NCBI GenBank assembly: GCA_903879705.1
Contig: CAIRMO010000036.1
Coordinates: 1-64,000 of the forward strand
Direction of reading: 5' to 3'
Origin: an uncultured Candidatus Competibacteraceae bacterium
GTDB lineage: Bacteria; Pseudomonadota; Gammaproteobacteria; Competibacterales; Competibacteraceae
Length of the DNA: 64,000 nt
This document shows positions 1,106 to 43,701 of this stretch, one piece after another. The notes below the pieces were generated by a model. That model saw only the letters and a list, made by a program, of their open reading frames with translations, made no database searches and had not been told where the DNA came from. Within the stretch, counting starts at the first letter, position 1; each line of letters opens with the position of its first letter. A program made the translations under genes and the position numbers.

Positions 1106-1229
1106 TTAGTTCTACTTTGTCAGATTACGAGCAACCATTTGATTTATAAAGTTTTATCAATTTTACTCACTTTATGTGAATTTTAGCGAAATCAATAGGT
1201 TGTGTTTCAATCTGACAAAGTAGAATTAG
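1106..1229 (+). mobile_element. MITE copy 1, inserted in the Rhs gene
   Basis: A 116-bp AT-rich element lies at 1110-1225, flanked on both sides by TTAG (1106-1109 and 1226-1229). Its ends are 17-bp perfect inverted repeats, TTCTACTTTGTCAGATT and its complement, with a weaker extension inward. It has no coding capacity. TTAG fits the YTAR 4-bp target duplication known for IS5-group transposases, so an IS5-type helper is a reasonable guess. It introduces a TGA after 18 foreign codons into the large Rhs gene. It is identical, in inverse orientation, to the copy at 9255-9370. Confidence 0.92.
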
Positions 1230-7200: not shown

Positions 7201-9227
7201 AACGTCGGATTGACCACGATCTTAGCGGACTCGGACAAGGTCGCGGTGCTGTTGGCTGGCTTGGTCGGCAACGCCCACTGATACGTCAACGGGTCGCCGT
7301 CGGCATCGGTCGAGCCGCTGCCGTCCAAGTACACCACGGCGTTCCGGGCGACGGTCTGCGCCGGACCGGCCTCGGCCACCGGCTTGGTGTTCAGGGTGCT
7401 GATGGTGACGGTGTCGGGGGCGCTGGCGACCGTGCCGTCGAAGACGATCAGTTGCGCGACGTACTGGCCGGGGTTGTCCGCGGTGAATGTGGGCTGGGGC
7501 GCGAACGGATCGGACAGCGTCGCGCCGCTGCCGGCGGGGATACTCGTCAGCGACCATTGGTAAGCGAGGGCATTACCGTCCACATCGGTCGATCCGCTGC
7601 CGTCCAGATGCACCACGGCATTCAACGCCACGCTCTGGTCGAGGCCGGCGTTGGCCACCGGCGGCGAGTTCTCGGTGGTGATCGTGACGCGGTCGGCGGC
7701 GCTGTTGACTTGACCGTCGTTAACGATCAGTTGCGCCTCGTATGGCCCGGCTTGGTCGAGGGTGAAGGTCGGACTGACCGTGGTGGGGTTACTCAGGGTC
7801 GCGGCGCTGCCGGCGGGTTTGCTCGGCAAGGTCCAGGCGTAGGTCAGGGCGTTGCCGTCCACATCGCTCGAACCGCTGCCGTCGAGGGTCACGATCGCGC
7901 TCACCTTCGCGCTCTGGTCGGGGCCGGCGTGCGCCACCGGCGCGGTGTTGCGGGTGCTGATGGCGACGCTGTCGGGCGCGCTATTCGCGGACCCGTCGTT
8001 GACGAGCAGTTGCACCCCATAGGTTCCGGCCTTGTCGAGGACGAACGTGGGGTTAACCGTGGTGGCGCCAGTCAGCGTCGCGGTGCTGCCCGCCGGCCGA
8101 CTGACCAACGACCAAGCATAGGTCAGGCTGTTGCCGTCGACATCGCTGGAGCCGCTGCCATCGAGCGCCACGGTCGTTCCCACCGTGGCGGTCTGATCGG
8201 AACCAGCATTCGCCACTGGCGGGGTGTTGGTGGTAGCGCCCGTTCTGATTGTGACCCGATCGGGAACGCTGAGCGCCCGTCCGTCGAAGACGATCAGTTG
8301 CGCCACATACTGGCCGGACCGGTCAGCGACGAAGGTCGGCTTCGCCGACAGCCGATTCCTCAAAACCGCCCGGCTGTGGAACGGCTTGCTCAGCAGAAAC
8401 CAGCCGTAGCGAAGCTGGTCGCCGTCGGCGTCGCTGGAACCGCCGCCGTCGAGTTGCACGGTCGTCCCCACCGTGGTGGTCTGATCGGGTCCGGCGTTGG
8501 CGACCGGCCGGGTGTTGGCGGTGACGCGGGCTTTGATCTCGACCCTGTCCGGAGCGCTGTCCGCCCGCCCGTCGTTAACGATCAATTGCGCGACGTACTC
8601 GCCCGCCACATCGGCGACGAAAGTGGGCTTCGCCGTTTGTGGGCTGTTCAACACGGCCCGGCTGCCGGACGGCTTCGTCCGCAGGGACCAGCGGTAACTG
8701 AGCGGATTGCCATCGGGATCGCGGGAGGCACCGCCATCGAGTTGCACCGTACTCTGGATCGGCACGGTCTGATCGGGTCCGGCGTTGGCGACGGGGGGCG
8801 TATTGCCACTGACGGGACAGACGACCGAGGCGCGGATGAAACTGCCTGGTTTGCCGTTGAGTTCGACGATCAGGGTGTTTTGCGGTTGGAGCGAAACCGG
8901 CTTATCGATCCGGGTGACCGTTCTCTTGAAATCCGCCGGGCTGACCACGACAGCACCATTGAGCTGGAGGGTGGCGCTGGTGACGCGGGTTTTGCTGCTG
9001 TCGCCGTTCTGGACGGTCAGCGTGCATTGGCTGCCCGCCTGCGGTGGCAACGCGAAGGTCCGGGTGATGCGCTGGGGAGCGCCGGCCCCCCGGACGAACT
9101 GTTCCGGGCCGAACACGGTCTCCGGCTCGGCGGTGAACGAGGCTAAACTGAACAGCAGCAGCAGGCTGAGTCCAATCCATAACCCTAAACCGGAACGGCT
9201 CTGAATCACAGCACGCAGTGTCGACAT
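1167..9227 (-). CDS. Giant exported teneurin-like PKD/NHL/YD-repeat (Rhs) protein, truncated by a MITE
   Basis: The frame has 2686 codons. Residues 1-33 form a signal peptide (basic start, hydrophobic core LGLWIGLSLLLLFSLASFTA). Residues from about 141 to 800 hold seven tandem PKD-type Ig repeats of about 92 residues, each opening with a variant of NTPPVANAGPDQ. A cadherin-like Ig domain (TDPDAGDTLTYALPTKPDG) and another PKD-like domain follow, then a carboxypeptidase-regulatory-like domain (LRGRVLDKSNAPLSGVTMTI). Next come about five NHL repeats (GDGGPALQA, IRRIGRDGIVTTI) and a long run of YD repeats (YDALGRL, YDANGNRLS). This order resembles teneurins and Tc-toxin-like shells: a beta-propeller next to a YD shell. 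The last 18 residues (LLCQIETQ onward) are encoded by the MITE, so the native C-terminus lies at 162-1105. The product is probably secreted or surface-anchored, and its role is unknown. Confidence 0.88.
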   Translation of the reverse strand: MSTLRAVIQSRSGLGLWIGLSLLLLFSLASFTAEPETVFGPEQFVRGAGAPQRITRTFALPPQAGSQCTLTVQNGDSSKTRVTSATLQLNGAVVVSPADFKRTVTRIDKPVSLQPQNTLIVELNGKPGSFIRASVVCPVSGNTPPVANAGPDQTVPIQSTVQLDGGASRDPDGNPLSYRWSLRTKPSGSRAVLNSPQTAKPTFVADVAGEYVAQLIVNDGRADSAPDRVEIKARVTANTRPVANAGPDQTTTVGTTVQLDGGGSSDADGDQLRYGWFLLSKPFHSRAVLRNRLSAKPTFVADRSGQYVAQLIVFDGRALSVPDRVTIRTGATTNTPPVANAGSDQTATVGTTVALDGSGSSDVDGNSLTYAWSLVSRPAGSTATLTGATTVNPTFVLDKAGTYGVQLLVNDGSANSAPDSVAISTRNTAPVAHAGPDQSAKVSAIVTLDGSGSSDVDGNALTYAWTLPSKPAGSAATLSNPTTVSPTFTLDQAGPYEAQLIVNDGQVNSAADRVTITTENSPPVANAGLDQSVALNAVVHLDGSGSTDVDGNALAYQWSLTSIPAGSGATLSDPFAPQPTFTADNPGQYVAQLIVFDGTVASAPDTVTISTLNTKPVAEAGPAQTVARNAVVYLDGSGSTDADGDPLTYQWALPTKPANSTATLSESAKIVVNPTFVADQAGAYAAQLIVNDGAIDSDPDTVIISTENSKPVANAAGPNQPPLTGTTVTLDGSASQDVDGDSLTYRWSFISRPDGSTASLSTTDPIKPTFVPDLAGPYVVQLIVNDGTVDSEPVTATVTVIEPPPTNRAPTITSTAITQTTAGQLYRYQVTATDPDAGDTLTYALPTKPDGMAIDAATGLIQWTPSQAGGTNVVVRVTDGGGLFNEQSFTITVAAASTNQAPQVNAGTPQTITLPANQVTLSGTVTDDSLPNPPNSVTVTWTKDSGPGTVTFGSANAKTTTATFSAAGAYVLRLTASDGALSAFATVTITVNPAGGTPPPDPATVAPPPDPTVATTTYAATQFLYSGANPIQTGVASGTIDPKRTAVLRGRVLDKSNAPLSGVTMTILGHPEFGQTLSRADGMFDLAVNGGGLLTVVYTRGGYLPAQRQEAVPWQDFVVVEDTILIARDTQATVVDLTQSAVQVAQGSPVTDQDGTRQATLLIPPGTTAQVYNPDGSTRTVSSLTLRATEYTVGANGPKTMPAPLPPTSGYTYAVEISTDEATTKLNGKDVLFNQPVPFYVDNFLNFPVGGAVPVGYYDNTQGAWIPAPNGRIIKILSISNGKADLDVTGSGTAADAAALTALGITDAERTQLANLYPVVGKSLWRVPLAHLSTWDCNWPFGPPADAQGPTVPPPDNDDGQNPPNPVRQCGSIIECENQTLGEHIPVAGTGFSLNYRSDRVPGRVSSSTLVIPLGDGSVPASLKRIDLAIAIAGRVIERSFDRNATQTRFTWDGKDGYGRSLSGSQTARVTLSYAYDGAYQQPASGASSFGRTSGVPFTGDRARQEIYLSRSYTATVGAPSFAVQGIGGWTLDVHHVYDPNGKVVYRGDGGQQRAALSLNSVITTFAGGGGNCDLGENVPIAQACLMGQRVRDVAVTSDGSVLFGDGGSRIRRVGADGRVVTIADADDTYGYSGDGGPALQARFANIVSIVPAPDGSIVINDLGNRRIRRIGRDGIVTTIGGNGTSCYRSKNDSCGDGGPALQAGLASPYEIAVAADGSILISEAVRIRQIGPDGIITTIAGALPPAYNPTSNGDGGPATQAFFGGLGGMGIAPDNSIWVFDNGAAVGDSSSPTTLRYLRPSLRRIGPDGVITTVAGSGACAQDTAYPYKLPLFCGDGGLATQAGIGGQFWDAAPGSVAAMPNGSMLFTDSRNDRIRLVKPNGIITTITGSGVSGYYYSMEFAEGSPATQARLGLPTQVAVAPDGNIFFAVKNENAGMHLLKLSPPLTGFTGNELVVASEDGRQLYSFDASGRHLRTVDTLTGTTLYTFAYDSAGRLITITDADNNVTTLERDGNGKPTAIAGPFGQRTGLTLDTNGYLARVTNPAGEAFQMTYTSGGLLTQFTDPNGHASQISYDALGRLQRDADAAGGSQTLARTSIPNGFAATRTTALNRTTTYTVENLPIGDQKRSVTAPDGIKTETLTQTNGTVKTTAPDGTVTVAIQGPDPRFGMQAPITKSQTVTSGGLTSTLTTAVTADLTTPGDPLSLTTLIANTTLNGRLATSVYHAASRITTTTSAAGRVSYSVLDAKGRVSETGLTGLDAVHYSYDARGRLSNTTQGSGGTARTITLSYDAGGFLASTTDSLGRVTTFANDAVGRVLNQTLPDASAISFDYDANSNLTALTPPGRLAHDFTYTPVDLTAAYQPPTVTDGGNTQYEYNLDRQPVKVIRPDGGLITSDYDAGGRFSALTTPTGGYGYSYTAAGQLSGITAPGNLTLAFTHNQALLTGVIWSGAIAGQVGFGYDNDFRVAEITVDGANPIAYQYDADSLLTQAGALTLARSAENGLLTGSSLDKVGDSYTYNSFGEITRYTATYDVATPRLAVQYTYDQGGRITQKVETVAGSAATTYDYGYDPLGQLIEVKRDHAVIARYSYDANGNRLSTTSGGTVNATYDAQDRLLTYGNANYAYTANGELQRKTVGALVTTYSYDALGNLRNVTLPGGTAIEYLILLCQIETQPIDFAKIHIK
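6827..8807 (-). repeat. Tandem array of seven PKD-type repeat modules
   Basis: Seven modules of about 275 bp lie head to tail inside the giant gene. In the protein each has the N-[ST]-x-P-V-A-x-A-G-x-x-Q opening, a middle L-D-G-[SG]-x-S-x-D-[VAP]-D-G, an aromatic-containing strand and a closing P-T-F-x-x-D-x-x-G-x-Y-x-x-Q-L-[IL]-V-x-D-G. The modules are diverged but alignable, which indicates growth by unequal recombination followed by drift. Known PKD arrays act as extended stalks on exported proteins. Confidence 0.8.
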
Positions 9228-9250
9228 GGCGGGACCTTATAGCGGGTTGA

Positions 9251-16143: not shown

Positions 16144-17025
16144 TTAGGCGATGCTCTTGGGCAGAAAATCCAGCAGTAATCCACAGAAGATCGCCAGCCC
16201 GAATGGATGGTTGTTGAGAAAGGCTTTGAAACACTCCTCCGGCTGGCGGGCGCGAATCAGGTATTGCTGATAGAGCGCCAGCCAGGCTGCGACCAACAGG
16301 CCGAGATAGTAAAATCCGCCGCGCCCGGTCAGCAGCCCAATCCCAATCAGCAGGATGAGCAGCGCCAGTTGCAGATAGCCAATGATCCGCTTGTCCCACG
16401 CGCCGAAGCGAATGGCGGTCGATTTCAGACCGATCTTGAGATCATCTTCCCGGTCGACCATCGCGTACTCGGTATCGTAGATCGCCGCCCACAGGATATT
16501 GACGATAAACAGCAGCCAGGCGATCGGCGGCAAGGTATTGGTGATGGCGGCATAGGCCATGGGAATTCCCCAGCCAAACGCCGCGCCGAGATGAAATTGC
16601 GGGAAATGGTGGAAGCGCTTCATCAGTGGATAACTGACCGCCAGCGCCAAGCCAACGAAGGAGAGCTGAATGGTGAGCGGGTTTTGAGTCAGGACCAGGG
16701 CGAAGGCCAGGAGGCAAAGTCCACTGGCGAGACCCACCGCTTCACCTAGGCTAACCCGACCCGCTGCCAGCGGTCGGTCGCGGGTGCGCGCAACGTGTGG
16801 GTCAAACGTGCGGTCGGCGATGTCGTTGATCACGCACCCGGCTGAGCGCATCAGCACGACGCCGAGGACGAACACCAGTACGGTTCCCCGTGGCGGTTGG
16901 CCGTTGCCGGCCAGCCACAGCGCCCACAGGGTTGCCCACAGCAGCAGATAGATCCCGATAGGCCGGTGCAGGCGCATCAGCAGGGCGTATTCGCGCAGGC
17001 GGTCTTCAATGCGATCGATAGTCAT
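16144..17025 (-). CDS. ubiA: 4-hydroxybenzoate polyprenyltransferase
   Basis: The product has 293 residues, the normal length, with about eight membrane segments. Both aspartate-rich motifs are present: INDIADRTFDPHVARTRDRP at about residue 68 and DTEYAMVDREDDLKIGLKST at about residue 185. The enzyme joins the polyprenyl tail to 4-hydroxybenzoate in the inner membrane, the first membrane step to ubiquinone. Chorismate lyase, which makes its substrate, is encoded two bases upstream. Ubiquinone is also the precursor of rhodoquinone, for which rquA is found at 31506. Confidence 0.95.
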   Translation of the reverse strand: MTIDRIEDRLREYALLMRLHRPIGIYLLLWATLWALWLAGNGQPPRGTVLVFVLGVVLMRSAGCVINDIADRTFDPHVARTRDRPLAAGRVSLGEAVGLASGLCLLAFALVLTQNPLTIQLSFVGLALAVSYPLMKRFHHFPQFHLGAAFGWGIPMAYAAITNTLPPIAWLLFIVNILWAAIYDTEYAMVDREDDLKIGLKSTAIRFGAWDKRIIGYLQLALLILLIGIGLLTGRGGFYYLGLLVAAWLALYQQYLIRARQPEECFKAFLNNHPFGLAIFCGLLLDFLPKSIA

Positions 17026-17027
17026 GG

Positions 17028-17672
17028 TTAGGAATGGTTAGGATCAGTGTTAGAGTTAAAGTCAGTTCTGGATCGGAAACCGGCCAGATTAACCGGCAAA
17101 TCGGGCAGGAAAACTTCGCAGACCAATAATGGGCGGCGATCCAGCCGGAATACCGAGCGTCGGCCCCAGAGCGTTTCCAGGGGTTCGGCGCAACCGGCCA
17201 CGGCGCGTTGATGCAACCGCTGACCGGCAACGATACGGGCGACTTCGACTGGGCCGCGTTGGACGCCAGGATCGGTGAACAGCGCTTCACCCAGGGGTCG
17301 GGTTCCCAGCCAGGTCAGCCGCCGTCCGCGACCGCGTAGGGTACAGGCCGGGATTACGGTGCGGGCAAAGACCCAGGGCTGTTTATCGCAGCGCAGTTGC
17401 ACCTCGCGAGTCCAGGCCCAAGCATCGAGCCGGAGCTGCAAGGCGCGGGCTTCATCCTGATCTGGACGAATCCAGCCCTGACTCAGCACCTGCACCCGAA
17501 GTTGGCCCGAACAACGCTGGCGCAACCGCCGGGTCAACGAGCCGGCGTCGAACAGCCAGTCGTTCAATTCGGCAGGCCAGTCGCGCTGCCACACCGGCGG
17601 GTGTAAATGCCAGCGCGGCAGCGTATGCAACGAAACAGGAGAATCCGTAGGCAAGGCGGCGAATTCGATCAT
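17028..17672 (-). CDS. ubiC: Chorismate lyase
   Basis: The product has about 214 residues from ATG 17672; a TTG at 17687 would add five. It matches UbiC in its central motifs: ARTVIPACTLRG at about residue 110, GTRPLGEALFTDPGVQRGPVEVAR, and RRSVFRLDRRPLLVCEVFLP near the end. The last residues FRSRTDFNSNTDPNHS lie beyond the domain and are encoded by TAAC-rich repeated sequence, perhaps a recent extension. The enzyme releases 4-hydroxybenzoate and pyruvate from chorismate. It is the first gene of the ubiC-ubiA pair. Confidence 0.92.
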   Translation of the reverse strand: MIEFAALPTDSPVSLHTLPRWHLHPPVWQRDWPAELNDWLFDAGSLTRRLRQRCSGQLRVQVLSQGWIRPDQDEARALQLRLDAWAWTREVQLRCDKQPWVFARTVIPACTLRGRGRRLTWLGTRPLGEALFTDPGVQRGPVEVARIVAGQRLHQRAVAGCAEPLETLWGRRSVFRLDRRPLLVCEVFLPDLPVNLAGFRSRTDFNSNTDPNHS

Positions 17673-17694
17673 GGCTTGAAAGCGCAATTATGGC

Positions 17695-27816: not shown

Positions 27817-28172
27817 CCTCTTGAAGAGCTTTCGTGGAGCAGGCTCAATAGGCGTCCGTCAATAGCGACAGAAAGCAGGGCCGAACTGGGCGTCGTCCAG
27901 CAAAACAGTCGGTCAATTCTATACTCTAACGGCGTTGAAAATTGCCGGAAATTTCCTCCATCCCGCCACTTCAGGCCCGCCGAAGACGCATGGATCGTTT
28001 CCGGCCTGGCGCAAAATCGTTGCTATAGCCTGAGTCCATTCCGGATTGAAGGCGATCGCCGGTGACCCATAACCCGGTAACCGGCAGGGTATATTTCGGC
28101 GATCAATCCGATATGATTACCCTTGCATGACTTGAATCATTAATCGAGGCATTAAGCCGAGGAGCGGGAAGA
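27817..28172. other. Divergent intergenic region between the sensor operon and frdABCD
   Basis: The 356 bp hold the leaders of two divergent operons. An AT-rich TATAGAAT on the minus strand near 27920 could be a -10 for the binding-protein gene, but no convincing -35 is seen. On the frd side the last 40 bases are AT-rich (TTGAATCATTAATC). I looked for an FNR box of the TTGAT-N4-ATCAA form and found none that fits. No small gene or RNA can be supported. Confidence 0.5.
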
Positions 28173-29933
28173 GTGGAGATCATTAAGACCGATATCGCAA
28201 TCGTCGGTGCGGGGGGCGCGGGGCTGCGAGCCGCCATCGCCCTGGCTGAAGCTGATCCAAAACTTCGCATTGCACTGATTTCAAAAGTTTATCCCATGCG
28301 CAGCCACACTTGTGCGGCGGAAGGTGGGGCCGCCGGGGTCATCAAGTCTGATGACAGCATGGCCCTGCATTTTGGCGACACGGTGGGCGGCGGCGACTGG
28401 CTGTCCGATCAGGACGCGGTCGAATACTTCATCCACGAAGCCCCCAAGGAACTGACCCAGCTTGAACATTGGGGCTGTCCGTGGAGCCGCGAACCCGATG
28501 GCTCAGTCGCGGTACGGCCCTTTGGCGGGATGAAAATCAAGCGCACCTGGTTCGCCGCTGACAAATCCGGCTTCCATATTCTGCACACCCTGTTTCAGAC
28601 CTCGCTCAAGTATCCGAGCATCCAGCGCTTCGATGAGTATTACGCCACCGATCTGCTGGTCGAGGACGGACACTGCCAGGGCCTCACCGCGCTGGAAATT
28701 CGCAGCGGCCAGATGAAACAGTTCCAGGCCAGGGCGGTGATCATTGCCGGCGGCGGCGGCGGACGGATGTTCCCGTTCACCACCAATGGCGCAGTCAAGA
28801 CCGGCGACGGGATGGCGCTGGCTTATCGCGCCGGGGTGCCGCTCAAGGATATGGAGTTCGTGCAGTACCATCCGACCGGGCTGCCCAATAACGGCATTCT
28901 GTTGACCGAAGGCTGCCGTGGTGAAGGCGGGGTGCTGTTCAACAAGGATGGTCGCCGCTATTTGCAGGATTACGGGATGGGGCCGGAAACACCCATCGGT
29001 CAGCCGGTGCTGAAAACTATGGAACTCGGCCCCCGCGACCGGGTAAGCCAGGCTTTCTGGCACGAACAGAAGAAGGGCAATACCGTCTCGACCCCGTGGG
29101 GCGACTGCGTGTTGCTGGATATGCGCCATCTCGGCGAAAAGAAGATCGACGAGCGGTTGCCGCTGGTCCGCGATCTGTGCATCAGCTACCTCGGCAAAGA
29201 CCCGGTTAAGGAACCGATTCCGATCCGCCCGGTGGTGCATTACATGATGGGAGGGATTCACACCAATATTAAAGCCGCGACCCCGCTGCCGGGATTGTTC
29301 GCCGCGGGCGAATGCGCTTGCGTCAGCATCAACGGTGCCAATCGGCTCGGTTCCAACTCGCTGACTGAATTGCTGGTGTTTGGCAAGCGGGCAGCGTTGA
29401 GCGCCATTGAGCATGTCCAGTCCGGCTTGTCGGCCAGCAAGGATGCGGCGTTGACGGGTCAGGCCCAGGCTTCGGAGACGCGGATTGGCACACTGATGAA
29501 GAAGAGTGCCGGCACCGAAACTATTGCCGGGCTGCGAAAAGAGATGATGGAGACGATGGAAACCAATGTCGGCATTTACCGCACCGGTTCGGAACTGGCG
29601 ACGGCCTGCGACAAGATTTCCGAACTGCGCCAGCGTTACGCCCACATTGCCCTGCACGACAAGACCCACGTCTACAACACCGACCTGATGCAGGCGCTGG
29701 AACTGGGATCGATGCTCGATTGCGCCGAAGCAGTCACGGTCGGGGCGCGGGATCGCAAGGAATCGCGGGGCGCGCACCAGCGGCTCGACTTCACCGAACG
29801 GGATGATGTGAACCTGCTCAAGCATACCCTGGCCTATTACCATCCCACCGAACCGCCCCGCCTTGACTATCTCGATGTGGTGATTACCCAATCACAACCT
29901 GGGGTGCGCGATTACTCAGGAGCCAAGAAATGA
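28173..29933 (+). CDS. frdA: Fumarate reductase flavoprotein subunit
   Basis: The product has 586 residues and follows E. coli FrdA closely along its length. The FAD site is IAIVGAGGAGLRAAIALAEA at the N-terminus and the FAD-linked histidine is in YPMRSHTCAAEGG at about residue 43. Active-site segments are FVQYHPTGLPNNGILLTEGCRGEGG and RPVVHYMMGGIHTN, and NRLGSNSL closes the capping region. The start is a GTG with GGAG eight bases upstream. The subunit reduces fumarate to succinate on the cytoplasmic face. It is first in the overlapping frdABCD operon. The four-subunit layout with two small anchors points to fumarate reduction rather than the SdhCDAB oxidative enzyme. Confidence 0.95.
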   Translation: MEIIKTDIAIVGAGGAGLRAAIALAEADPKLRIALISKVYPMRSHTCAAEGGAAGVIKSDDSMALHFGDTVGGGDWLSDQDAVEYFIHEAPKELTQLEHWGCPWSREPDGSVAVRPFGGMKIKRTWFAADKSGFHILHTLFQTSLKYPSIQRFDEYYATDLLVEDGHCQGLTALEIRSGQMKQFQARAVIIAGGGGGRMFPFTTNGAVKTGDGMALAYRAGVPLKDMEFVQYHPTGLPNNGILLTEGCRGEGGVLFNKDGRRYLQDYGMGPETPIGQPVLKTMELGPRDRVSQAFWHEQKKGNTVSTPWGDCVLLDMRHLGEKKIDERLPLVRDLCISYLGKDPVKEPIPIRPVVHYMMGGIHTNIKAATPLPGLFAAGECACVSINGANRLGSNSLTELLVFGKRAALSAIEHVQSGLSASKDAALTGQAQASETRIGTLMKKSAGTETIAGLRKEMMETMETNVGIYRTGSELATACDKISELRQRYAHIALHDKTHVYNTDLMQALELGSMLDCAEAVTVGARDRKESRGAHQRLDFTERDDVNLLKHTLAYYHPTEPPRLDYLDVVITQSQPGVRDYSGAKK

Positions 29934-30673
29934 GCGAACGCCAAATTCAGTTGGAGGTTCTCCGCTACAACCCGGAGACCGACAGCGAACCCCGCTATCA
30001 GACATATTCCGTGCCGTGCATGAATGAGTGGGTGGTGCTGGACGCCCTGAACTACGTCAAGGACAACCTTGATCCGACCCTGAGCTATCGCTGGTCGTGC
30101 CACATGGCGGTTTGCGGCAGTTGCGGGATGATGATCAATGGCGAACCGAAGCTGGCGTGCAAGGCGTTTATCCATGAATACACCGATCAGGTTCGAGTCG
30201 AGCCGATGGCCAATTTCCCCATCGAGCGCGACCTGGTCACGTCGGTCGAAGACTTCATCGCTAAACTGGCCTGCGTCAAGCCGTACCTGATTCCCAAGAG
30301 CGATCAGCCGGTCAGTGCTGGCGCGTTCCAGCAGAGTCCGGCGGAACTGAAGAAATTCAAGCAATACACCCTCTGCATTAACTGCATGTTGTGTTACGCC
30401 GCCTGTCCGCAATATGGGCTGGTGCCGGAATTCCTTGGCCCGGCAGCGATTTCCATGGCGCACCGCTATAACCAGGATTCCCGCGATGGCGGGCGGGATC
30501 AGCGTCAGGAAGTGATCGCTTCGGACGAGGGGGTATGGGAATGCTCGTTTGTCGGAGCCTGCTCCGAAGTGTGTCCCAAGCACGTTGACCCGGCAGGCGC
30601 GTTGCAGCAGGTCAAGGTCGCCAGCACCCTCGACTGGTACAAAGAACACTTGATGCCGTGGATGAAAAAATGA
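29930..30673 (+). CDS. frdB: Fumarate reductase iron-sulfur subunit
   Basis: The product has 247 residues. The 2Fe-2S ligands are in SCHMAVCGSCGMMINGEPKLAC, of which CGSCG and the later Cys are clear at about residues 57-77. The 4Fe-4S and 3Fe-4S ligands are in CINCMLCYAACPQYG at about 148 and CSFVGACSEVCPKHVDP at about 205. It carries electrons from the membrane quinol site to FrdA. Its start overlaps the frdA stop by four bases and its stop overlaps frdC by four bases (ATGA), so the operon is tightly coupled. Confidence 0.95.
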   Translation: MSERQIQLEVLRYNPETDSEPRYQTYSVPCMNEWVVLDALNYVKDNLDPTLSYRWSCHMAVCGSCGMMINGEPKLACKAFIHEYTDQVRVEPMANFPIERDLVTSVEDFIAKLACVKPYLIPKSDQPVSAGAFQQSPAELKKFKQYTLCINCMLCYAACPQYGLVPEFLGPAAISMAHRYNQDSRDGGRDQRQEVIASDEGVWECSFVGACSEVCPKHVDPAGALQQVKVASTLDWYKEHLMPWMKK

Positions 30674-31062
30674 ACAAACCCTATGTTCGCCCCTTGTCCA
30701 AAACCTCCTGGTTTCTGACTCAGCCCCGTTATAAGCGGTATATGCTGCGGGAAGTGACCTGCCTGTTTATCTTCGCCTACACCTTCCTGCTGATTTGGGG
30801 TCTCAAGCGGCTTTCCGAAGGGCCGGACGCTTTTCAGGGCTTCCTGAATGCGCTGCACAGTCCGTGGAGCGTACTGTTCAATCTGGCGGTGCTGATTGCC
30901 GCGGTCTACCATAGCACCACTTGGTTCAACGTCACCCCGCAGGCGATGCCGATCCAGCGCGGCGAAGAGTTTGTGCCGGGCAATATTATTATCGGTGCCC
31001 ACTATGCCGTCTGGGCGGTGGTCTCGCTGATCATCCTGATTATTGGCATTCGGGGAATGTAA
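30670..31062 (+). CDS. frdC: Fumarate reductase membrane anchor subunit C
   Basis: The product has 130 residues with three membrane helices (residues about 28-48, 65-87 and 107-128). The N-terminus MNKPYVRPLSKTSWFLTQPRYKRYMLREVT matches the FrdC pattern, with a conserved Arg/Tyr-rich segment before helix 1. The start inside frdB at the ATGA overlap is preferred to the frame opening at 30658. Together with FrdD it forms the quinone pocket. There is no heme-ligand pattern, as expected for the type D complex. Confidence 0.9.
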   Translation: MNKPYVRPLSKTSWFLTQPRYKRYMLREVTCLFIFAYTFLLIWGLKRLSEGPDAFQGFLNALHSPWSVLFNLAVLIAAVYHSTTWFNVTPQAMPIQRGEEFVPGNIIIGAHYAVWAVVSLIILIIGIRGM

Positions 31063-31064
31063 TC

Positions 31065-31406
31065 ATGGCCAAATCCAACAAACCGATTTTCTGGGGATTA
31101 TTTGCGGCTGGCGGCACGGTGACCGCGTTTGTGACTCCGGCGCTGGCACTGGTGACGCTGATCGCCGCGATGCGCTACTCGCCGGATATGTTTACTTATG
31201 ACGCGATCCATGTTTTTGCTGCCCACTGGCTGGGCAAACTGGTGATTTTCGGCATCATCCTGCTGTCGCTGTGGCACGCTGCACACCGGACCCGGGTCAC
31301 CGTTCATGACTTCGGGGTTCGCGCCGACAGTCTGGTGGCCATTGTGGTCTACGCGCTGGCCGGTATCGGGACGCTGCTGACCCTGGTTTACCTGTTGCGT
31401 ATCTGA
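31065..31406 (+). CDS. frdD: Fumarate reductase membrane anchor subunit D
   Basis: The product has 113 residues with three membrane helices. It begins at ATG 31065, two bases after the frdC stop. KSNKPIFWGLFAAGGTVTAFVTPALAL matches the first helix of FrdD, and HVFAAHWLGKLVIFGIILLSLWHAAHR the second. The long frame that starts upstream of it inside frdC is not used. It completes the four-gene frd operon, which ends at the terminator at 31447-31479. Confidence 0.92.
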   Translation: MAKSNKPIFWGLFAAGGTVTAFVTPALALVTLIAAMRYSPDMFTYDAIHVFAAHWLGKLVIFGIILLSLWHAAHRTRVTVHDFGVRADSLVAIVVYALAGIGTLLTLVYLLRI

Positions 31407-31446
31407 CCCATAACCGGGAATTTGCCCGGTTGATTCCTCACCCCAA

Positions 31447-31479
31447 CCCCTCTCCTTCATCGGGAGAGGGGCGTTTTTT
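31447..31479 (+). terminator. Rho-independent terminator after frdD
   Basis: The stem CCCCTCTCC pairs with GGAGAGGGG around a seven-base loop (ttcatcg), followed by CGTTTTTT. The stretch CCTCACCCCAACCCCTCTCC just before it is a sequence often repeated in proteobacterial genomes. A smaller hairpin AACCGGG/CCCGGTT precedes it at about 31412-31433. Confidence 0.85.
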
Positions 31480-31505
31480 GATCCGTCTTGAAGGACATTT
31501 TTGCC

Positions 31506-32324
31506 ATGAGTTCCCAATCTGCACCGTATGCCGCTACCTTGCCCCGTTCTTCGGCACTGGATCAGGTCGCTAGAGTGGAGCCGGCGATGGCCGGTGTTAA
31601 AAACGCTGCTGTTTTTGAGGAAGCCCGCCGGATGGTTGATGGTTCGGCGCACGTTCCATTGCTGCCCGCCTATTTACAGCAAACCTACTGGTGGGCTTAT
31701 CTGCACCCCAACGCGGTGTGGGTGTTTGAACGGCAATGGCTGGTTAACCTGATTCTGTGGGGCAACTTTGCGGAATTGCGCGACGCGGCGCTGGCGGAAA
31801 TGGGCGAGACGATTGACGGGACAGTTTTACAAGTGGCCTGCGTGTACGGAGACTTCACCGAGCGACTGGCACAACGGCTGACTCCGAACGGGCGGCTGGA
31901 TGTGGTGGATGTCGCGCCGGTGCAGTTGGAGAACTTGAAGACCAAGCTCAACGGTGCTGCACAGATCGTTGTTTATCACCAGGATTCTACCGATCTACGC
32001 TTCGTCGACGCTAGTTATGATTGCGTAGTGGTGTTTTTCCTGTTGCACGAACAGCCGGAAGCAACGCGGATTCAGACCATCGCCCAAGCGTTGCGGGTGG
32101 TCAAGCCGGGCGGCAAGGTGGTCTTTGTGGACTACCATCGCCCTGATGCAATTAACCCGTTCCGCTACGTCATGGTGCCGATTTTTAAGTCTCTGGAACC
32201 GTTTGCGATGGATCTGTGGAACAAGGAAATTGCCGATTGGCTGCCCACTTCGGTACGTCTGGCCAGCATCGACAAGCAAACCTTTTTCGGCGGGTTGTAT
32301 CAGAAGGTCGTGATGATCCGGTGA
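31506..32324 (+). CDS. rquA: Rhodoquinone biosynthesis methyltransferase-like protein RquA
   Basis: The product has 272 residues from ATG 31506, with AAGGA nine bases upstream. The hallmark block YLQQTYWWAYLHPNAVWVFE, followed by RQWLVNLILWGNFAELRDAAL, is present at about residues 60-100. The SAM-binding loop is LQVACVYGDFTERLA instead of the DxGxGxG seen in UbiG/UbiE. Both are features of RquA, which converts ubiquinone to rhodoquinone. Rhodoquinone has a lower potential and lets fumarate reductase run towards succinate. Its place directly behind frdABCD, separated only by a terminator, fits this job. A general class I methyltransferase is the alternative. Confidence 0.87.
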   Translation: MSSQSAPYAATLPRSSALDQVARVEPAMAGVKNAAVFEEARRMVDGSAHVPLLPAYLQQTYWWAYLHPNAVWVFERQWLVNLILWGNFAELRDAALAEMGETIDGTVLQVACVYGDFTERLAQRLTPNGRLDVVDVAPVQLENLKTKLNGAAQIVVYHQDSTDLRFVDASYDCVVVFFLLHEQPEATRIQTIAQALRVVKPGGKVVFVDYHRPDAINPFRYVMVPIFKSLEPFAMDLWNKEIADWLPTSVRLASIDKQTFFGGLYQKVVMIR

Positions 32325-32331
32325 AAGCCCA

Positions 32332-32796
32332 TTAGCCGATAAGAACGTCGGGCGGCGGCGCCAGGGCGATTTGTCGCGCCCGCTGCACGAAGGCATTCAC
32401 CATGCTCAGCGCCATTGGCCGAACCAGCACCTCGCTGATCGGCTTGAACCAGATCGAGCGTACTTCACAATCCAGGGCGAAATCGATTCGGCACTGACCT
32501 TCGGGAGTAGGCGCAAACGTCCAGCAAATGTCGAAGCGGCGGAAAATGTGGTCTGCCGAAGTCACCACAATCGAGCGCGGCGAATCGAGTTCGGTACGGG
32601 TGCGGAATCGCCGTTGCAGCAGCCCTAGCGCCAGCACCTGTTCGGTCTCATAACCGCGATCATATCGCCGAATGATCCGCGCCTCCCGCATCAACGGGAT
32701 GAATTCCGGGTAGCGTTCCACGTCCGCGACCAGCGCGAACAACCGCTCGGCGGAAATGGCGACTACGCGGCTTTCGTGATGGGATGTCTGGGTCAT
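32332..32796 (-). CDS. Coq10/RatA-like START-domain protein
   Basis: The product has 154 residues from ATG 32796, with GGGAG six bases upstream. The Coq10/polyketide-cyclase fold shows in SAERLFALVADVERYPEFIPLMREARI near the N-terminus, then CRIDFALDCEVRSIWFKPISE and the long C-terminal helix ALSMVNAFVQRARQ. Relatives bind ubiquinone and help its delivery to respiratory complexes (Coq10), or are called RatA in E. coli. Its 3' end meets rquA with only seven bases between, so two quinone-related genes are convergent here. Confidence 0.85.
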   Translation of the reverse strand: MTQTSHHESRVVAISAERLFALVADVERYPEFIPLMREARIIRRYDRGYETEQVLALGLLQRRFRTRTELDSPRSIVVTSADHIFRRFDICWTFAPTPEGQCRIDFALDCEVRSIWFKPISEVLVRPMALSMVNAFVQRARQIALAPPPDVLIG

Positions 32797-34623: not shown

Positions 34624-34757
34624 ACCGTCGCCATTATCCCTTTAACATTCAGGTTCTCGATGCCGATTATGGCCAACTGCCGGGTCAAGTCCGTGGTGGT
34701 TTTGTGCGTCCAGTCCTGACGGACATGGGCAATCCGATGGGTCAAGACGGTTGGCAT
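34620..34757 (-). pseudogene. Collapsed TnpB remnant of an IS607 element
   Basis: The 45-residue frame MPTVLTHRIAHVRQDWTHKT continues into TDLTRQLAIIGIENLNVKGIM. This is an internal piece of TnpB: the helix before the RuvC-II strand and the E-[ND]-L-N-V-K-G-M motif with the catalytic Glu. The usual protein has about 400 residues. The N-terminal half, the zinc ribbon and the last RuvC aspartate are absent. It lies directly behind the TnpA gene with a slight overlap, the normal IS607 order. It cannot be an active nuclease. Confidence 0.75.
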
Positions 34758-35320
34758 GACATCGCCTCCAGCGCCCGTTTGGCGCGATCCGCTGCCGCCC
34801 GCTGGCCGTATAACCGGGTACATAAAGACATAAAAACTTCGGTGACATCTAGCACCAGGTCGTCCTGGACTTCGGCAAAGTCGATGACCACCACCGTCCG
34901 GCCTTGTGCGGTTAGTGCGGCTTCAACGTATTCAAAACCAAACCGCATCAACCGGTCGCGGCGTTCCACCACCACTGTGGTCACGGCGGGCGTCCGCAAT
35001 AACCGCATCAAGTCACGCCGGTGGCCGTTAAGGCCGGAACCGATTTCTTTGACCACCTCCGTCACGCACAAGCTATGTTCAGCGGCATACACCGCTAATC
35101 GCGCCACTTGGCGCTCCAGATCGGGTTTCTGGTCGGCGCTGGACACCCGAGCGTACAGCGCCACTCCGCCATCGGTCGCTGTTACGGGGGGATGCACAAT
35201 GATCGTCCCGGTCAGCAATTGTTCGGCAGGAACCGGCAATCGCCCGGTTTTCCACATTTTCCAGGCCGTTTCGTACCGCAAGCCTTGTGATTTTGCCCAG
35301 ACACTGAGTTTCATGCTCAA
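34742..35320 (-). CDS. tnpA: IS607-family serine recombinase TnpA
   Basis: The product has 192 residues. An N-terminal MerR-like DNA-binding region (LSVWAKSQGLRYETAWKMWKTGRL) precedes the serine recombinase domain. The catalytic serine is in ALYARVSSADQKPDLERQV at about residue 59, with conserved arginines in SGLNGHRRDLMRLL and VVERRDRLMRFGFEYVE. These enzymes move IS607 elements through a circular form with little target preference and no terminal inverted repeats. The gene looks intact, while its TnpB partner is deleted to a stub. The element ends cannot be placed by eye. Confidence 0.9.
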   Translation of the reverse strand: MSMKLSVWAKSQGLRYETAWKMWKTGRLPVPAEQLLTGTIIVHPPVTATDGGVALYARVSSADQKPDLERQVARLAVYAAEHSLCVTEVVKEIGSGLNGHRRDLMRLLRTPAVTTVVVERRDRLMRFGFEYVEAALTAQGRTVVVIDFAEVQDDLVLDVTEVFMSLCTRLYGQRAAADRAKRALEAMSCQPS

Positions 35321-40959: not shown

Positions 40960-43653
40960 TCACTCAAACCCGTAGGCAAATTCGCCGTCCCGCACCGACA
41001 GTTGCACCCGCACCACCGGTTTGCCTTCCACTATCCGGGCCAAAAATTCCTGGCTGATCGCCGGCAGCACGGTATTGGTCAGAATCGCGTCCACCATCCG
41101 CCCGCCGCTTTCCAGTTCGGTGCAACGGCTAACGATTAGCTTGACCACCTCGTCGTCGTAGCTGAACGGAATCTTGTGATTGTCGAGCATCCGCTTTGCG
41201 ATCCGGCGCAGTTGCAGGCGGACGATGTCGCCGAGCATCTCGTCGCTAAGCGGGTAGTAGGGAATGGTCACCAATCGGCCTAACAACGCCGGCGGAAACA
41301 CTTTCAGCAACGGCTCGCGCAGTGCCTTGCCCAGGCCATCGACCTCCGGCAGCAGCTCCGGGTCTTTGCACATGCCCATGATCAGATCAGTGCCAACATT
41401 GGTGGTCAGCAAAATCAAGGTGTTCTTGAAGTTGATCGGCCGGCCTTCGCCATCCTCCATCCAGCCCTTGTCGAACACCTGGAAGAAAATCTCATGCACG
41501 TCATGGTGCGCTTTCTCGACTTCATCCAGCAGCACCACGCTGTAAGGGCGCCGCCGCACCGCCTCAGTCAGCACCCCGCCTTCGCCATAACCGACATAGC
41601 CGGGGGGCGCGCCTTTCAGCGTCGAAACGGTGTGCGCTTCCTGGAACTCGCTCATATTGATAGTGATGACATTCTGCTCGCCGCCATACAGCGCCTCGGC
41701 CAGCGCCAGCGCGGTCTCGGTCTTGCCCACCCCGGACGGACCCGCCAGCATGAACACCCCAATGGGCTTGTTGGGATTATCGAGCGCGGCGCGGGAGGTT
41801 TGAATCCGCCGGGCGATCAGGTCCAGAGCGTGGCGCTGACCGATGATCCGCCGGTTGAGAATGTCGGCGAGACTCAGCACCGTTTCGATTTCGTTCTTGA
41901 CCATCCGCCCAACCGGAATGCCAGTCCAGTCAGCCACCACCGAAGCGACCGCCTGGGCGTCCACACTGGGCAGAATCAGCGGCGACTCGCCTTGCAGGGT
42001 GTGCAATTGCGCCAGCAATTCCTTGAGTTCCATCAGCCGGGTTTGCCGTTCCGGATCGGCTTCGGCATCGACCGCGATCTCAGCCGGGTCCACCTTGCCA
42101 CCGTCGCCGCGCAATTTGGCCCGCAGCGCCAGAATCCGATCCACCAAGCCTTTTTCTTTCTGCCAACGGGCGTCCAGTTGCGCCAAGCGCGTCTCCTCGA
42201 TCTGCAACTTCTCGCTGGCGTCAGCCTGGCGCTGGGTGGTTTCGATGCCAATGGCGGTTTCGCGGGCGATGATCTCCAGTTCAACCTGCAACCCTTCAAT
42301 CCGGCGGCGGCAGTCTTCCACCTCAGCCGGCACCGCATGGAGGCTAATCGCGACTCTGGCGCTGGCGGTATCGAGCAGGCTGACCGCTTTATCTGGCAAC
42401 TGCCGGGCCGGAATGTAGCGGTGCGACAACTTGACCGCCGCCTCCAGCGCCTCATCGAGAATCTGCACCCGATGATGTTTTTCCATGGTGGAGGCCATGC
42501 CGCGCATCATCAGGATGGTCTTTTCTTCGCTCGGCTCGCCGATCTGCACCACCTGGAAACGGCGGGTCAGGGCCGGGTCTTTTTCGATGTGCTTTTTGTA
42601 TTCCGTCCAGGTTGTGGCGGCGATAGTGCGGAGTTTGCCCCGGGCCAGCGCCGGCTTGAGCAGATTGGCGGCATCGCCGGTGCCCGCCGCGCCGCCCGCA
42701 CCGACCAAGGTATGCGCCTCGTCGATGAATAGAATGATCGGCTTGGGCGAGGACTGCACCTCGTCGATCACTTGCCGCAGCCGATTCTCGAACTCGCCTT
42801 TCATGCTGGCCCCGGCCTGAAGCAAGCCCACGTCCAGCACCCGCAGGGTCACGTCTTTCAACGGCGGCGGCACCTCGCCGGCGGCGATGCGCTGAGCGAA
42901 GCCTTCCACCACCGCCGTTTTACCGACCCCGGCCTCGCCGGTCAGGATCGGATTGTTCTGGCGGCGACGCATCAGAATGTCGATGATCTGGCGGATTTCC
43001 TCATCGCGCCCGACGATCGGATCGAGTTCACCTTTGCGCGCCCGCTCGGTCAAATCCACGGAAAAGCGCTGCAACGCTTCCTGTTTGCCCATTTGCGCCG
43101 GAGCCAGCGCATCGCTGGCCTCGCCGGGAGCTGCGCCACCGCCCACTTGCGAACCGTCGGTCGAACGCAGCCCATTTTCCGGGGAAGCGGCGATGATGTC
43201 GCCGAACCGCTGCATCAGATCATCCAGCTTGATCCGGTCGAACTCGCGGGAAATAGCGAGCAGCGCATTGCGCAAGTCCGGGGTTTTCAACACCCCGACC
43301 AGCAGATGACCGGTGCGAACCTGCGAATCATTGAATAGCAACGTCGCGTAGACCCAGCCTTCTTTCACCGCTGCATCGACGTGAGCCGACAGATCGGAAA
43401 TGGAGGTTGCACCGCGCGGCAGGCGATCCAGCGCCTCAGTGAAATCCTTGGCCAATCGGGACGGATTCAGGCTGAAATGCTGAATCGCCCGGTGCAAATC
43501 TGAATCCGGCAATTGCAGAATCTGGTGCAGCCAATGCACCAGTTCGACATAGGGATTGCCCCGTAACTTGCAGAAAACGGTGGCGCTTTCGATGGCTTTG
43601 TAGCCGAGACTGTTCAGCTTTCCAAACAAGGCGACGCGACTGATTTCGGCCAT
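40960..43653 (-). CDS. tssH: Type VI secretion AAA+ ATPase ClpV
   Basis: The product has 897 residues. A Clp N-terminal domain (about 1-150, binds the TssC helix) leads into AAA-1 with Walker A GEAGVGKTAVVEG at about 233 and DEAHTLVGAGG. A coiled-coil middle domain follows at about 420-540, then AAA-2 with GPSGVGKTETALALAEALYGG at about 635 and VVLLDEVEKAHHDV. ClpV takes apart the contracted TssB/TssC sheath for re-use. GGGAG lies eight bases before the ATG. A gap of 220 bp filled with repeats separates it from tssG. Confidence 0.95.
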   Translation of the reverse strand: MAEISRVALFGKLNSLGYKAIESATVFCKLRGNPYVELVHWLHQILQLPDSDLHRAIQHFSLNPSRLAKDFTEALDRLPRGATSISDLSAHVDAAVKEGWVYATLLFNDSQVRTGHLLVGVLKTPDLRNALLAISREFDRIKLDDLMQRFGDIIAASPENGLRSTDGSQVGGGAAPGEASDALAPAQMGKQEALQRFSVDLTERARKGELDPIVGRDEEIRQIIDILMRRRQNNPILTGEAGVGKTAVVEGFAQRIAAGEVPPPLKDVTLRVLDVGLLQAGASMKGEFENRLRQVIDEVQSSPKPIILFIDEAHTLVGAGGAAGTGDAANLLKPALARGKLRTIAATTWTEYKKHIEKDPALTRRFQVVQIGEPSEEKTILMMRGMASTMEKHHRVQILDEALEAAVKLSHRYIPARQLPDKAVSLLDTASARVAISLHAVPAEVEDCRRRIEGLQVELEIIARETAIGIETTQRQADASEKLQIEETRLAQLDARWQKEKGLVDRILALRAKLRGDGGKVDPAEIAVDAEADPERQTRLMELKELLAQLHTLQGESPLILPSVDAQAVASVVADWTGIPVGRMVKNEIETVLSLADILNRRIIGQRHALDLIARRIQTSRAALDNPNKPIGVFMLAGPSGVGKTETALALAEALYGGEQNVITINMSEFQEAHTVSTLKGAPPGYVGYGEGGVLTEAVRRRPYSVVLLDEVEKAHHDVHEIFFQVFDKGWMEDGEGRPINFKNTLILLTTNVGTDLIMGMCKDPELLPEVDGLGKALREPLLKVFPPALLGRLVTIPYYPLSDEMLGDIVRLQLRRIAKRMLDNHKIPFSYDDEVVKLIVSRCTELESGGRMVDAILTNTVLPAISQEFLARIVEGKPVVRVQLSVRDGEFAYGFE

Positions 43654-43673
43654 GATGCGGACTCCCGAAATGA

Positions 43674-43701
43674 GGTTAAAGGGGAAAGGTTAAAGGTTAA
43701 A
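43674..43701. repeat. Heptamer array upstream of clpV
   Basis: Units GGTTAAA, GGGGAAA, GGTTAAA and GGTTAAA lie 21 bp upstream of the clpV start. It has the same family sequence as the arrays at gene ends elsewhere in the window. Confidence 0.75.

Follow-up and report, generated by a model that had tools for sequence, protein, structure and literature searches.

The 64,000-nucleotide stretch analyzed here (the window; positions 1 to 64,000 of contig CAIRMO010000036.1 in GenBank assembly GCA_903879705.1), from an uncultured Candidatus Competibacteraceae bacterium, carries the four genes of a quinol:fumarate reductase (FRD), frdABCD, followed by rquA, whose predicted product converts ubiquinone to the low-potential quinone rhodoquinone. 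We consider it very probable that frdABCD–rquA is an anaerobic fumarate-respiration module working with rhodoquinone. This pairing, put forward in a preliminary description of the window made from its letters alone, is the likeliest reading. Evidence in its favor includes the profile score of RquA, the conserved adjacency of the genes, and the failure to detect a menaquinone pathway in the genome.

The frdABCD–rquA pairing is very likely real and is known in kind. Stairs et al. (2018) linked bacterial rquA with respiratory genes, including those of complex II, within 15 genes (PMC5953543; for this and every other paper cited by PMC number, statements refer to the excerpted text of the source). 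The proximity of rquA to complex II genes has thus already been published in general terms, and the novelty does not lie in the pairing itself. What is new is the branch of rquA-adjacent FRDs, marked by a quinol-site signature and conserved through the order Competibacterales, together with a START-domain gene that neighbors rquA or frd. The open-licence literature gave no match for Competibacter together with rhodoquinone. Among the matches listed for rquA with frdABCD, for rquA with COQ10/RatA/START and for rhodoquinone with terms for glycogen-accumulating organisms (GAOs), neither the FRD signature nor the START neighbor was reported; earlier mention is possible in each case.

The frdABCD–rquA locus

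The five genes lie on the plus strand at positions 28173–32324 of the window, in the order frdA, frdB, frdC, frdD, rquA (Table 1). Overlaps of 4 bases join the four frd genes to one another, and frdD and rquA are spaced 99 bases apart. Gene order and family profile scores bear out the complete frd operon followed by rquA that had been described. FrdA, FrdB and FrdD exceed the NCBIfam equivalog cut-offs, and the membrane anchor families PF02300 and PF02313 are both present. FrdC passes the Pfam FrdC model but fails the NCBIfam FrdC equivalog cut-off (106.6 vs 143 bits), and we therefore read this FRD as a divergent relative that has the architecture of the Escherichia coli type without being an ortholog of the E. 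coli enzyme. It resembles E. coli FrdABCD (PDB 1KF6, 1L0V) in its four subunits, their gene order, both anchors and the residues of the proximal quinol site. The residues kept in the window are FrdC E29, H82 and W86, FrdD W14, H80 and R81, and FrdB K228, a list chosen partly from PMC5907181 and partly from established knowledge of the enzyme.

The product of rquA scores 318.1 bits against NF038261 (curated cut-off 175), compared with 59 bits for the best UbiE/MenG-type model, and it contains the three motifs quoted for it in the preliminary description. A placement outside the RquA clade is contradicted by these scores; the accompanying tree comprised RquA matches only, without a UbiE outgroup. 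Within that tree, the window protein groups with Competibacteraceae RquA, at starred supports of 99 with one row and 96 with a 21-row set. Its closest named relative, at 86% identity, belongs to a Candidatus Competibacteraceae metagenome-assembled genome (MAG).

In Rhodospirillum rubrum RquA, which alone is sufficient in vitro, joint replacement of D118 and D143 abolishes rhodoquinone synthesis (PMC9814641). The S-adenosylmethionine (SAM)-pocket Asp pair of the window protein comprises residues 135 and 160, likewise 25 apart, an assignment made by spacing and motif and not by alignment with the R. rubrum sequence. The first position is Asp in 81 of 81 RquA rows, and the second is Asp in 75 and Asn in 6. 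The window protein shares with R. rubrum RquA a match to the equivalog model and this activity-required pair at the same spacing, and it differs in sitting in an frdABCD neighborhood. Window RquA is predicted to make rhodoquinone from ubiquinone.

Conserved linkage of rquA and frd

Among 40 genomes of the order, RquA is above cut-off in 30 and FrdD in 29. All 27 genomes with both genes have frdD followed by rquA on the same contig and strand, with 199–487 bases between the profile matches, and an order kept in 27 of 27 suggests that the pairing is more than chance. Three genomes have RquA only: in G020 and G035 the contig ends at rquA or 314 bases upstream of it, respectively, and in the third, G022, RquA is divergent (265 bits) and FrdD is absent from the genome. 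Two have FrdD only: in G028 the contig stops 172 bases beyond the frdD match, and in G031 frd lies beside menA. The 1.2-Mb genome G012, listed as 100% complete, keeps frd and rquA; the other members of its genus in this set are 2.8–3.6 Mb.

A scan with window RquA returned 99 relatives, the best 80 of which serve as the named rquA loci, a set biased toward relatives of that protein. Genes for FRD adjoin rquA in 43 of the 80, with 8 too short to judge. The linked loci display four gene orders: frd then rquA on one strand (28 loci), rquA then frd (11, one of which, L119, is counted from a partial frdA where the contig ends), divergent (3) and convergent (1). Across the 42 linked loci with frd measured, open frames are separated by at most 464 bases, and in three betaproteobacterial loci the frdD–rquA gap, measured to the first ATG, is 1–4 bases. 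On starred branches of the RquA tree we count at least 10 changes of frd adjacency, a number possibly inflated by short loci scored as having no frd. Proximity that is kept while gene order changes argues for functional coupling of rquA and frd. Among 369 genomes sampled across the class, FrdD exceeds 90 bits in 10 and RquA exceeds 200 bits in 12, and both occur together only in this order's three members. Defluviicoccus, another GAO, has rquA (L135) with no frd within the flanks.

The same searches yielded some side observations. In 25 genomes of the class sample, RquA-like proteins score 143–183 bits, a range that spans the cut-off (175) and lies below the >200-bit group. Genome G248 (L263/L271) has, on separate contigs, a mixed-residue FRD and an RquA-like protein that narrowly misses the cut-off at 173 bits, with no menA and no MenB above cut-off. 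The frd–rquA of MAGs titled Synechococcaceae and Phycisphaerales (L082, L108) nests among Competibacteraceae, and these titles or bins look wrong.

Quinone genes of the genome and of its order

The source genome (3.62 Mb in 148 contigs, with the window on contig 36) is listed as 100% complete. We searched it with profiles for a complete menaquinone pathway, which the preliminary description had named as evidence to the contrary, and nothing exceeded cut-off: MenA gave no match, MenB 149.6 bits (cut-off 342.7), MenD 55.5 bits (cut-off 244.2), and MqnA and MqnD none. The genome holds a UbiV homologue, pointing to the oxygen-independent ubiquinone route, and rhodoquinone would be the only low-potential quinone with genes found in it. 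A separate succinate dehydrogenase (SDH) is also encoded, with SdhC, SdhD and an SdhA of 969 bits (cut-off 727); SdhA and SdhC exceed their NCBIfam equivalog cut-offs, and SdhB runs off the fetched stretch.

Across the order, MenD is above cut-off in 1 of the 40 genomes and MqnA/D in 0, and the lone MenD genome (G001) has neither RquA nor FrdD above cut-off. UbiV is found in 23 of the 40 genomes, including 19 of the 30 with RquA, and the Sdh_cyt cut-off is passed in 36. In published surveys, rhodoquinone has been placed in 24 orders (PMC13386864) and seldom occurs with menaquinone (5 of 84 RquA genomes), while the oxygen-independent ubiquinone pathway is present in 73 of 84 (PMC11707229). A system with the same two functions, frdABCD and rquA, and no menaquinone was described in 2021 for 'Ca. 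Thiosymbion oneisti' (PMC8269255); the adjacency that is conserved across the order in Competibacterales is unstated in the excerpted text of that paper.

A branch of rquA-adjacent FRDs with a quinol-site signature

Menaquinol is the electron donor usually assigned to bacterial FRDs of the E. coli type. In an unrooted FRD tree, from which four fragments and two SDH rows were omitted, 37 rquA-adjacent FRDs are split from 29 others at a starred support of 100. The others are 24 Enterobacterales-type sequences and kin, G031, G187, G298, G368 and L103, which alone among the rquA-adjacent FRDs falls with them and had been labelled Enterobacterales-side beforehand, per an earlier quick tree. When the tree is rooted with SDH, the rquA side forms one clade, with a support of 80/83 that is not significant; 19 of 72 rows (fragments, near-copies and the counter-example L103) were left out of this tree. 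The Enterobacterales-type FRDs lie inside the rquA-side FRDs in the quick tree, which includes fragments, whereas the two groups are sisters in the careful SDH-rooted tree, and we claim neither root. Four loci (L103, L158, L075, L108) entered the FRD trees with FrdB and little or no FrdA.

The two sides differ at a small set of positions. With identical rows dropped, the FrdC and FrdD residue alignments comprised 40 rows from the rquA side and 51 from the other; a second E. coli copy is counted in the per-position tallies (other set 52 for FrdC/D and 49 for FrdB) and not in the 51-row signature count. The combination of FrdD K10, A18 and A79 (E. coli mature numbering) is present in 39 of 40 rquA-adjacent rows, L103 being the exception, and in 0 of 51 others, and FrdD 84 is His in 1 of 40 rquA-adjacent rows vs 49 of 51 others. 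On the rquA side, FrdC has V30 in 32 and C32 in 31 of 40 rows, with G/A30 and S/A32 on the other side, and FrdB 205 is Ser in 32 of 39 rows (Thr in 4, Ala in 1, gap in 2) vs Thr in 49 of 49. Relative to E. coli FrdABCD, which lies on the other side of the starred split, the window FRD adjoins rquA in a genome without a menaquinone gene above cut-off and carries the changes E10K, G18A, L79A, H83R and H84V in FrdD, G30V, A32C and L89V in FrdC, and T205S in FrdB.

The discriminating positions FrdD 18, 79, 83 and 84 and FrdC 30 and 32 adjoin the proximal quinol-site residues listed above, which nearly all rows of either side retain. In a docking model of Mycobacterium tuberculosis FRD, FrdD W20, F23, H84, R85 and F88 and FrdC S24, R25 and E26 lie near or contact the proximal quinol site, and FrdC E26 is equivalent to E. 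coli E29 (PMC5907181). Matched by motif in the present analysis, the remaining residues correspond to E. coli FrdD 14, 17, 80, 81 and 84 and FrdC 27 and 28. Thus, M. tuberculosis F88 corresponds to E. coli FrdD 84, a position that belongs to the pocket and also discriminates between the two sides. At FrdC 27, Ala occurs in 34 of 40 rquA-side rows, but the window has Leu, as does E. coli, which speaks against a simple residue rule.

Genes for menaquinone synthesis were checked in just 3 of the 51 other rows (G289, G358, G401); MenB is above cut-off in all three, and MenA of G358 is below. Menaquinone use by the remaining rows of this set is assumed from general knowledge of Enterobacterales and kin. 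In G401, from the class sample, frdD and menB share a strand and are 121 bases apart. Within the family of the source organism, G031 has no RquA above cut-off, and its frd contig (L158; contig 112, 6796 bases) carries frdBCD, menA (155 bits, cut-off 102) and, on the opposite strand, a different START-family gene. Its FrdD has E10, G18 and H84, but A79. MenB, MenD and MqnA/D are below cut-off or unmatched in G031, for which 88% completeness and 4% contamination are listed; the short contig, the contamination and the unmatched men genes mean that the frd contig may be of foreign origin or the pathway incomplete. Also in the other set, G187 and G298 (L260, L261; genomes of 1.5–2.0 Mb with menA and no MenB above cut-off) have FrdD K10, S18 and Y84 and FrdC N82. 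G368 (L262) has an FRD with no RquA (E up to 1e-30), no menA and no menB above cut-off; MenD and MqnA/D were not searched there.

A competing explanation, to which we assign a substantial chance somewhat short of even, is that the FRD is a generalist taking any quinol present, and that the residue differences reflect ancestry only, with no adaptation to a quinone. Since all rquA-adjacent FRDs except L103 lie on one side of a single deep split, the 39 of 40 rows are not independent events and ancestry alone could explain the signature; the invariant quinol-site residues are the same on both sides in nearly all rows, and A79 is shared by part of the other set and by the frd that adjoins menA in G031. 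That the discriminating positions should lie next to those invariant residues is less readily accommodated by a generalist enzyme, as is the presence of E10, G18 and H84 in the menA-adjacent frd of the same family. The preliminary description had inferred a quinone switch in the enzyme, and this holds in part: residues beside the quinol site do differ from those of Enterobacterales FRDs, but they do so across a single deep split whose direction is unsettled (root 80/83), and L103 breaks the rule. A quinone switch in the FRD is plausible.

Evidence against a rhodoquinone-dependent module

Several observations weigh against reading frdABCD–rquA as a fumarate-respiration module that works with rhodoquinone: (i) No rhodoquinone measurement for this organism was found in the open-licence literature. 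(ii) Of the order's 30 genomes with RquA, 11 gave no UbiV match, 8 of these 11 being listed as <90% complete. (iii) In 29 of the 80 named rquA loci, flanks of at least 1.5 kb to either side show no frd nearby. (iv) Nine RquA genomes (>200 bits) outside this order in the class sample are without FrdD >90 bits, which means that rquA there must serve other or unlinked enzymes and does not need this FRD. (v) On the betaproteobacterial contig L103, the sole counter-example to the signature, rquA is convergent with an FRD bearing A10, G18, A79 and H84. (vi) A terminator-like hairpin occupies the frdD–rquA gap in 6 of 29 loci examined, including the window, one of the six being weak. Co-transcription is therefore not certain, and at hairpin loci the expression of rquA may be lower than that of frd or separate from it. 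(vii) Anaerobic FNR control of frdA was considered and is not supported: palindromes with at most two mismatches lie upstream in 6 of 33 loci vs 3.5 expected, which is no clear enrichment, and none lies upstream of the window frdA, where the best site has three mismatches. A relaxed FNR pattern is over-represented across the whole window (39 vs 17.7), with none of its matches at 27817–28172 upstream of frdA.

The loci without frd nearby, taken with the reversibility of E. coli-type FRD, could also be understood if the complex were mainly a succinate dehydrogenase using ubiquinone and RquA served other anaerobic enzymes, a possibility that we regard as very unlikely given the separate SDH of this genome, shared by 36 of 40 in the order according to the Sdh_cyt cut-off, and an frd–rquA neighborhood kept through four gene orders. 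We give scarcely any credence to menaquinone being made by genes missed in the assembly, with RquA a relic: the assembly is in 148 contigs and the related G031 has frd beside menA, but the genome is listed as 100% complete with none of the five menaquinone proteins above cut-off, the one MenD genome among the 40 of the order is itself without rquA and frdD above cut-off, and RquA is intact and conserved.

A START-domain neighbor of rquA

The gene convergent with rquA ends 7 bases from the end of rquA and encodes a START-domain protein with a PF03364 match of 78.7 bits (cut-off 23.4) that fails the RatA equivalog (64.9 vs 258 bits). The nearest solved sequence is Caulobacter CC1736 (PDB 1T17, E 1e-9). 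The predicted structure (pLDDT 92) matches START/aromatase-cyclase folds, with a best Z of 20.5 and a TM of 0.74 to 1T17; no quinone-bound COQ10 structure is among the fold matches listed, which says nothing either way. PF03364 is common to this protein, CC1736 and E. coli RatA/PasT, and the START protein differs by its low RatA score and its place beside rquA or frd. We take PasT and RatA to be the same protein. In the title of one paper, E. coli PasT is called a homolog of mitochondrial Coq10 (PMC7755781). COQ10 proteins bind ubiquinone, and by this analogy we read the START protein as a likely quinone carrier with a putative role, in that it may bind or deliver quinone.

With a profile of the START subfamily, matches appear in 14 of the 80 named loci: 12 lie within 300 bases of rquA, one beside frdD (L105) and one 1.9 kb off (L092). 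The lineages represented, which are not independent, include Competibacteraceae (5 loci), Rhodospirillaceae, Rhodobacteraceae, Afifella and Chromatiales. At L111 the gene lies between frdD and rquA, and in Roseospirillum parvum 930I and Phaeovibrio sulfidiphilus DSM 23193 (Rhodospirillaceae) it is present with no frd within ~8 kb. The subfamily was not found at Enterobacterales-type frd loci, which are shorter stretches. Of the 14 START genes, 11 are in loci with frd, and 13 matches fall inside the frd/rquA block plus 1 kb; since that region makes up 34% of the bases, enrichment in the block is a weak test, and proximity of ≤300 bases in several orders is the stronger point. According to the excerpted text of Stairs et al., rquA does not appear near candidate quinone biosynthesis enzymes, whereas a COQ10-like gene lies beside it here; an FRD branch or residue signature is unmentioned in those excerpts (PMC5953543).

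A small membrane gene near rquA, forming a 13-locus cluster and presumably DUF2892-like, was discarded as a candidate neighbor. The cluster consisted mostly of frame-shadow artefacts, and a direct search gave 14 open frames of the real gene from a small number of Competibacteraceae loci, with several places represented twice.

Proposed electron route

In the route that we propose, the organism's own pathway (ubiA, a ubiC-like gene and the oxygen-independent ubiV) would supply ubiquinone, and RquA would convert it to low-potential rhodoquinone. A putative NADH dehydrogenase would reduce rhodoquinone, and FrdABCD would oxidise rhodoquinol and reduce fumarate to succinate. This would maintain redox balance and feed the succinate–propionate route during anaerobic carbon storage, with the separate succinate dehydrogenase handling the aerobic direction and the COQ10-like START protein perhaps binding or delivering the quinone. 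E. coli-type FRD does not pump, so that membrane force would stem from the upstream NADH dehydrogenase. In the storage metabolism of GAOs, the reductive branch of the tricarboxylic acid cycle runs via fumarate reductase, and a membrane potential generated by fumarate reductase has been reported for Ca. Competibacter (PMC9041414).

A bolder extension of the rhodoquinone reading is possible, though we find it rather doubtful: the rquA-adjacent enzymes would form a rhodoquinol-specific FRD subfamily with its own signature (FrdD K10/A18/A79 and V/I/T84), sister to the menaquinol enzymes, and the COQ10-like START protein would be a dedicated rhodoquinone/ubiquinone carrier, so that maker, carrier and user together would make up a portable cassette used by glycogen-accumulating wastewater bacteria. 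Whether the gain of a low-potential quinone accompanied the gain of fumarate reductase has been proposed as a question for study (PMC11707229).

Other features of the window

The window also contains genes of the ubiquinone pathway (Table 1), and glgB, the gene for glycogen branching enzyme, begins ~35.8 kb into it. On the minus strand, a Resolvase-domain protein, which we assume to be IS607-like, is placed between an MFS transporter gene and glgB (34742–35317). Elsewhere on this strand are a very large PKD/RHS-repeat protein with teneurin-like domains (1170–9236; open frame of 2689 residues) and an AAA+ ATPase with ClpB-type domains (40963–43689; open frame of 909 residues), the surroundings of which resemble, at a glance, what may be a type VI secretion cluster.

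Table 1 Coordinates, strand and supporting matches of the features discussed, in window positions
Feature	Position	Strand	Remarks
frdA	28173..29933	+	GTG start; flavoprotein subunit, E. coli-type quinol:fumarate reductase; NF006686 959.9 bits (cut-off 854), TIGR01176 939.4 (932.7)
frdB	29930..30673	+	Iron-sulfur subunit; NF009051 376 bits (cut-off 333)
frdC	30670..31062	+	Membrane anchor; PF02300 140 bits (cut-off 24); NCBIfam FrdC equivalog 106.6, below cut-off 143; PDB match 1kf6_C 5e-22
frdD	31059..31406	+	Membrane anchor; NF003977 88 bits (cut-off 60); PF02313 101 bits; PDB match 1kf6_D 2e-15; K10, A18, A79, R83, V84 (E. coli mature numbering)
Terminator-like hairpin and T-rich tail, frdD–rquA gap	31447..31481 (stem-loop 31447–31471)	+	10-pair stem, then T-rich tail; palindrome pattern once in window
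rquA	31506..32324	+	ATG start; predicted SAM-dependent ubiquinone-to-rhodoquinone amino-transfer enzyme, methyltransferase fold; NF038261 318 bits (cut-off 175); Asp pair 25 residues apart
COQ10/RatA-like START-domain protein	32332..32796	-	Convergent with rquA; PF03364 78.7 bits; RatA equivalog 64.9 (cut-off 258)
ubiC-like chorismate lyase (ubiquinone pathway)	17031..17687	-	Open frame, start codon not set; PF04345 135.8 bits (gathering 23.6); NCBIfam chorismate lyase 112, below cut-off 191
ubiA, 4-hydroxybenzoate octaprenyltransferase (ubiquinone pathway)	16147..17037	-	Open frame, start codon not set; TIGR01474 332 bits (cut-off 275); PF01040 235.4

Implications

The FRD belongs to a branch found mostly beside rquA, and the short list of differing residues beside the quinol site makes its quinone choice testable by a few point swaps in a laboratory E. 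coli strain. The START gene adds a new candidate to the possible partners of rhodoquinone. For Ca. Competibacter, a competitor in phosphorus-removal plants, the finding suggests which carrier may link NADH to fumarate.

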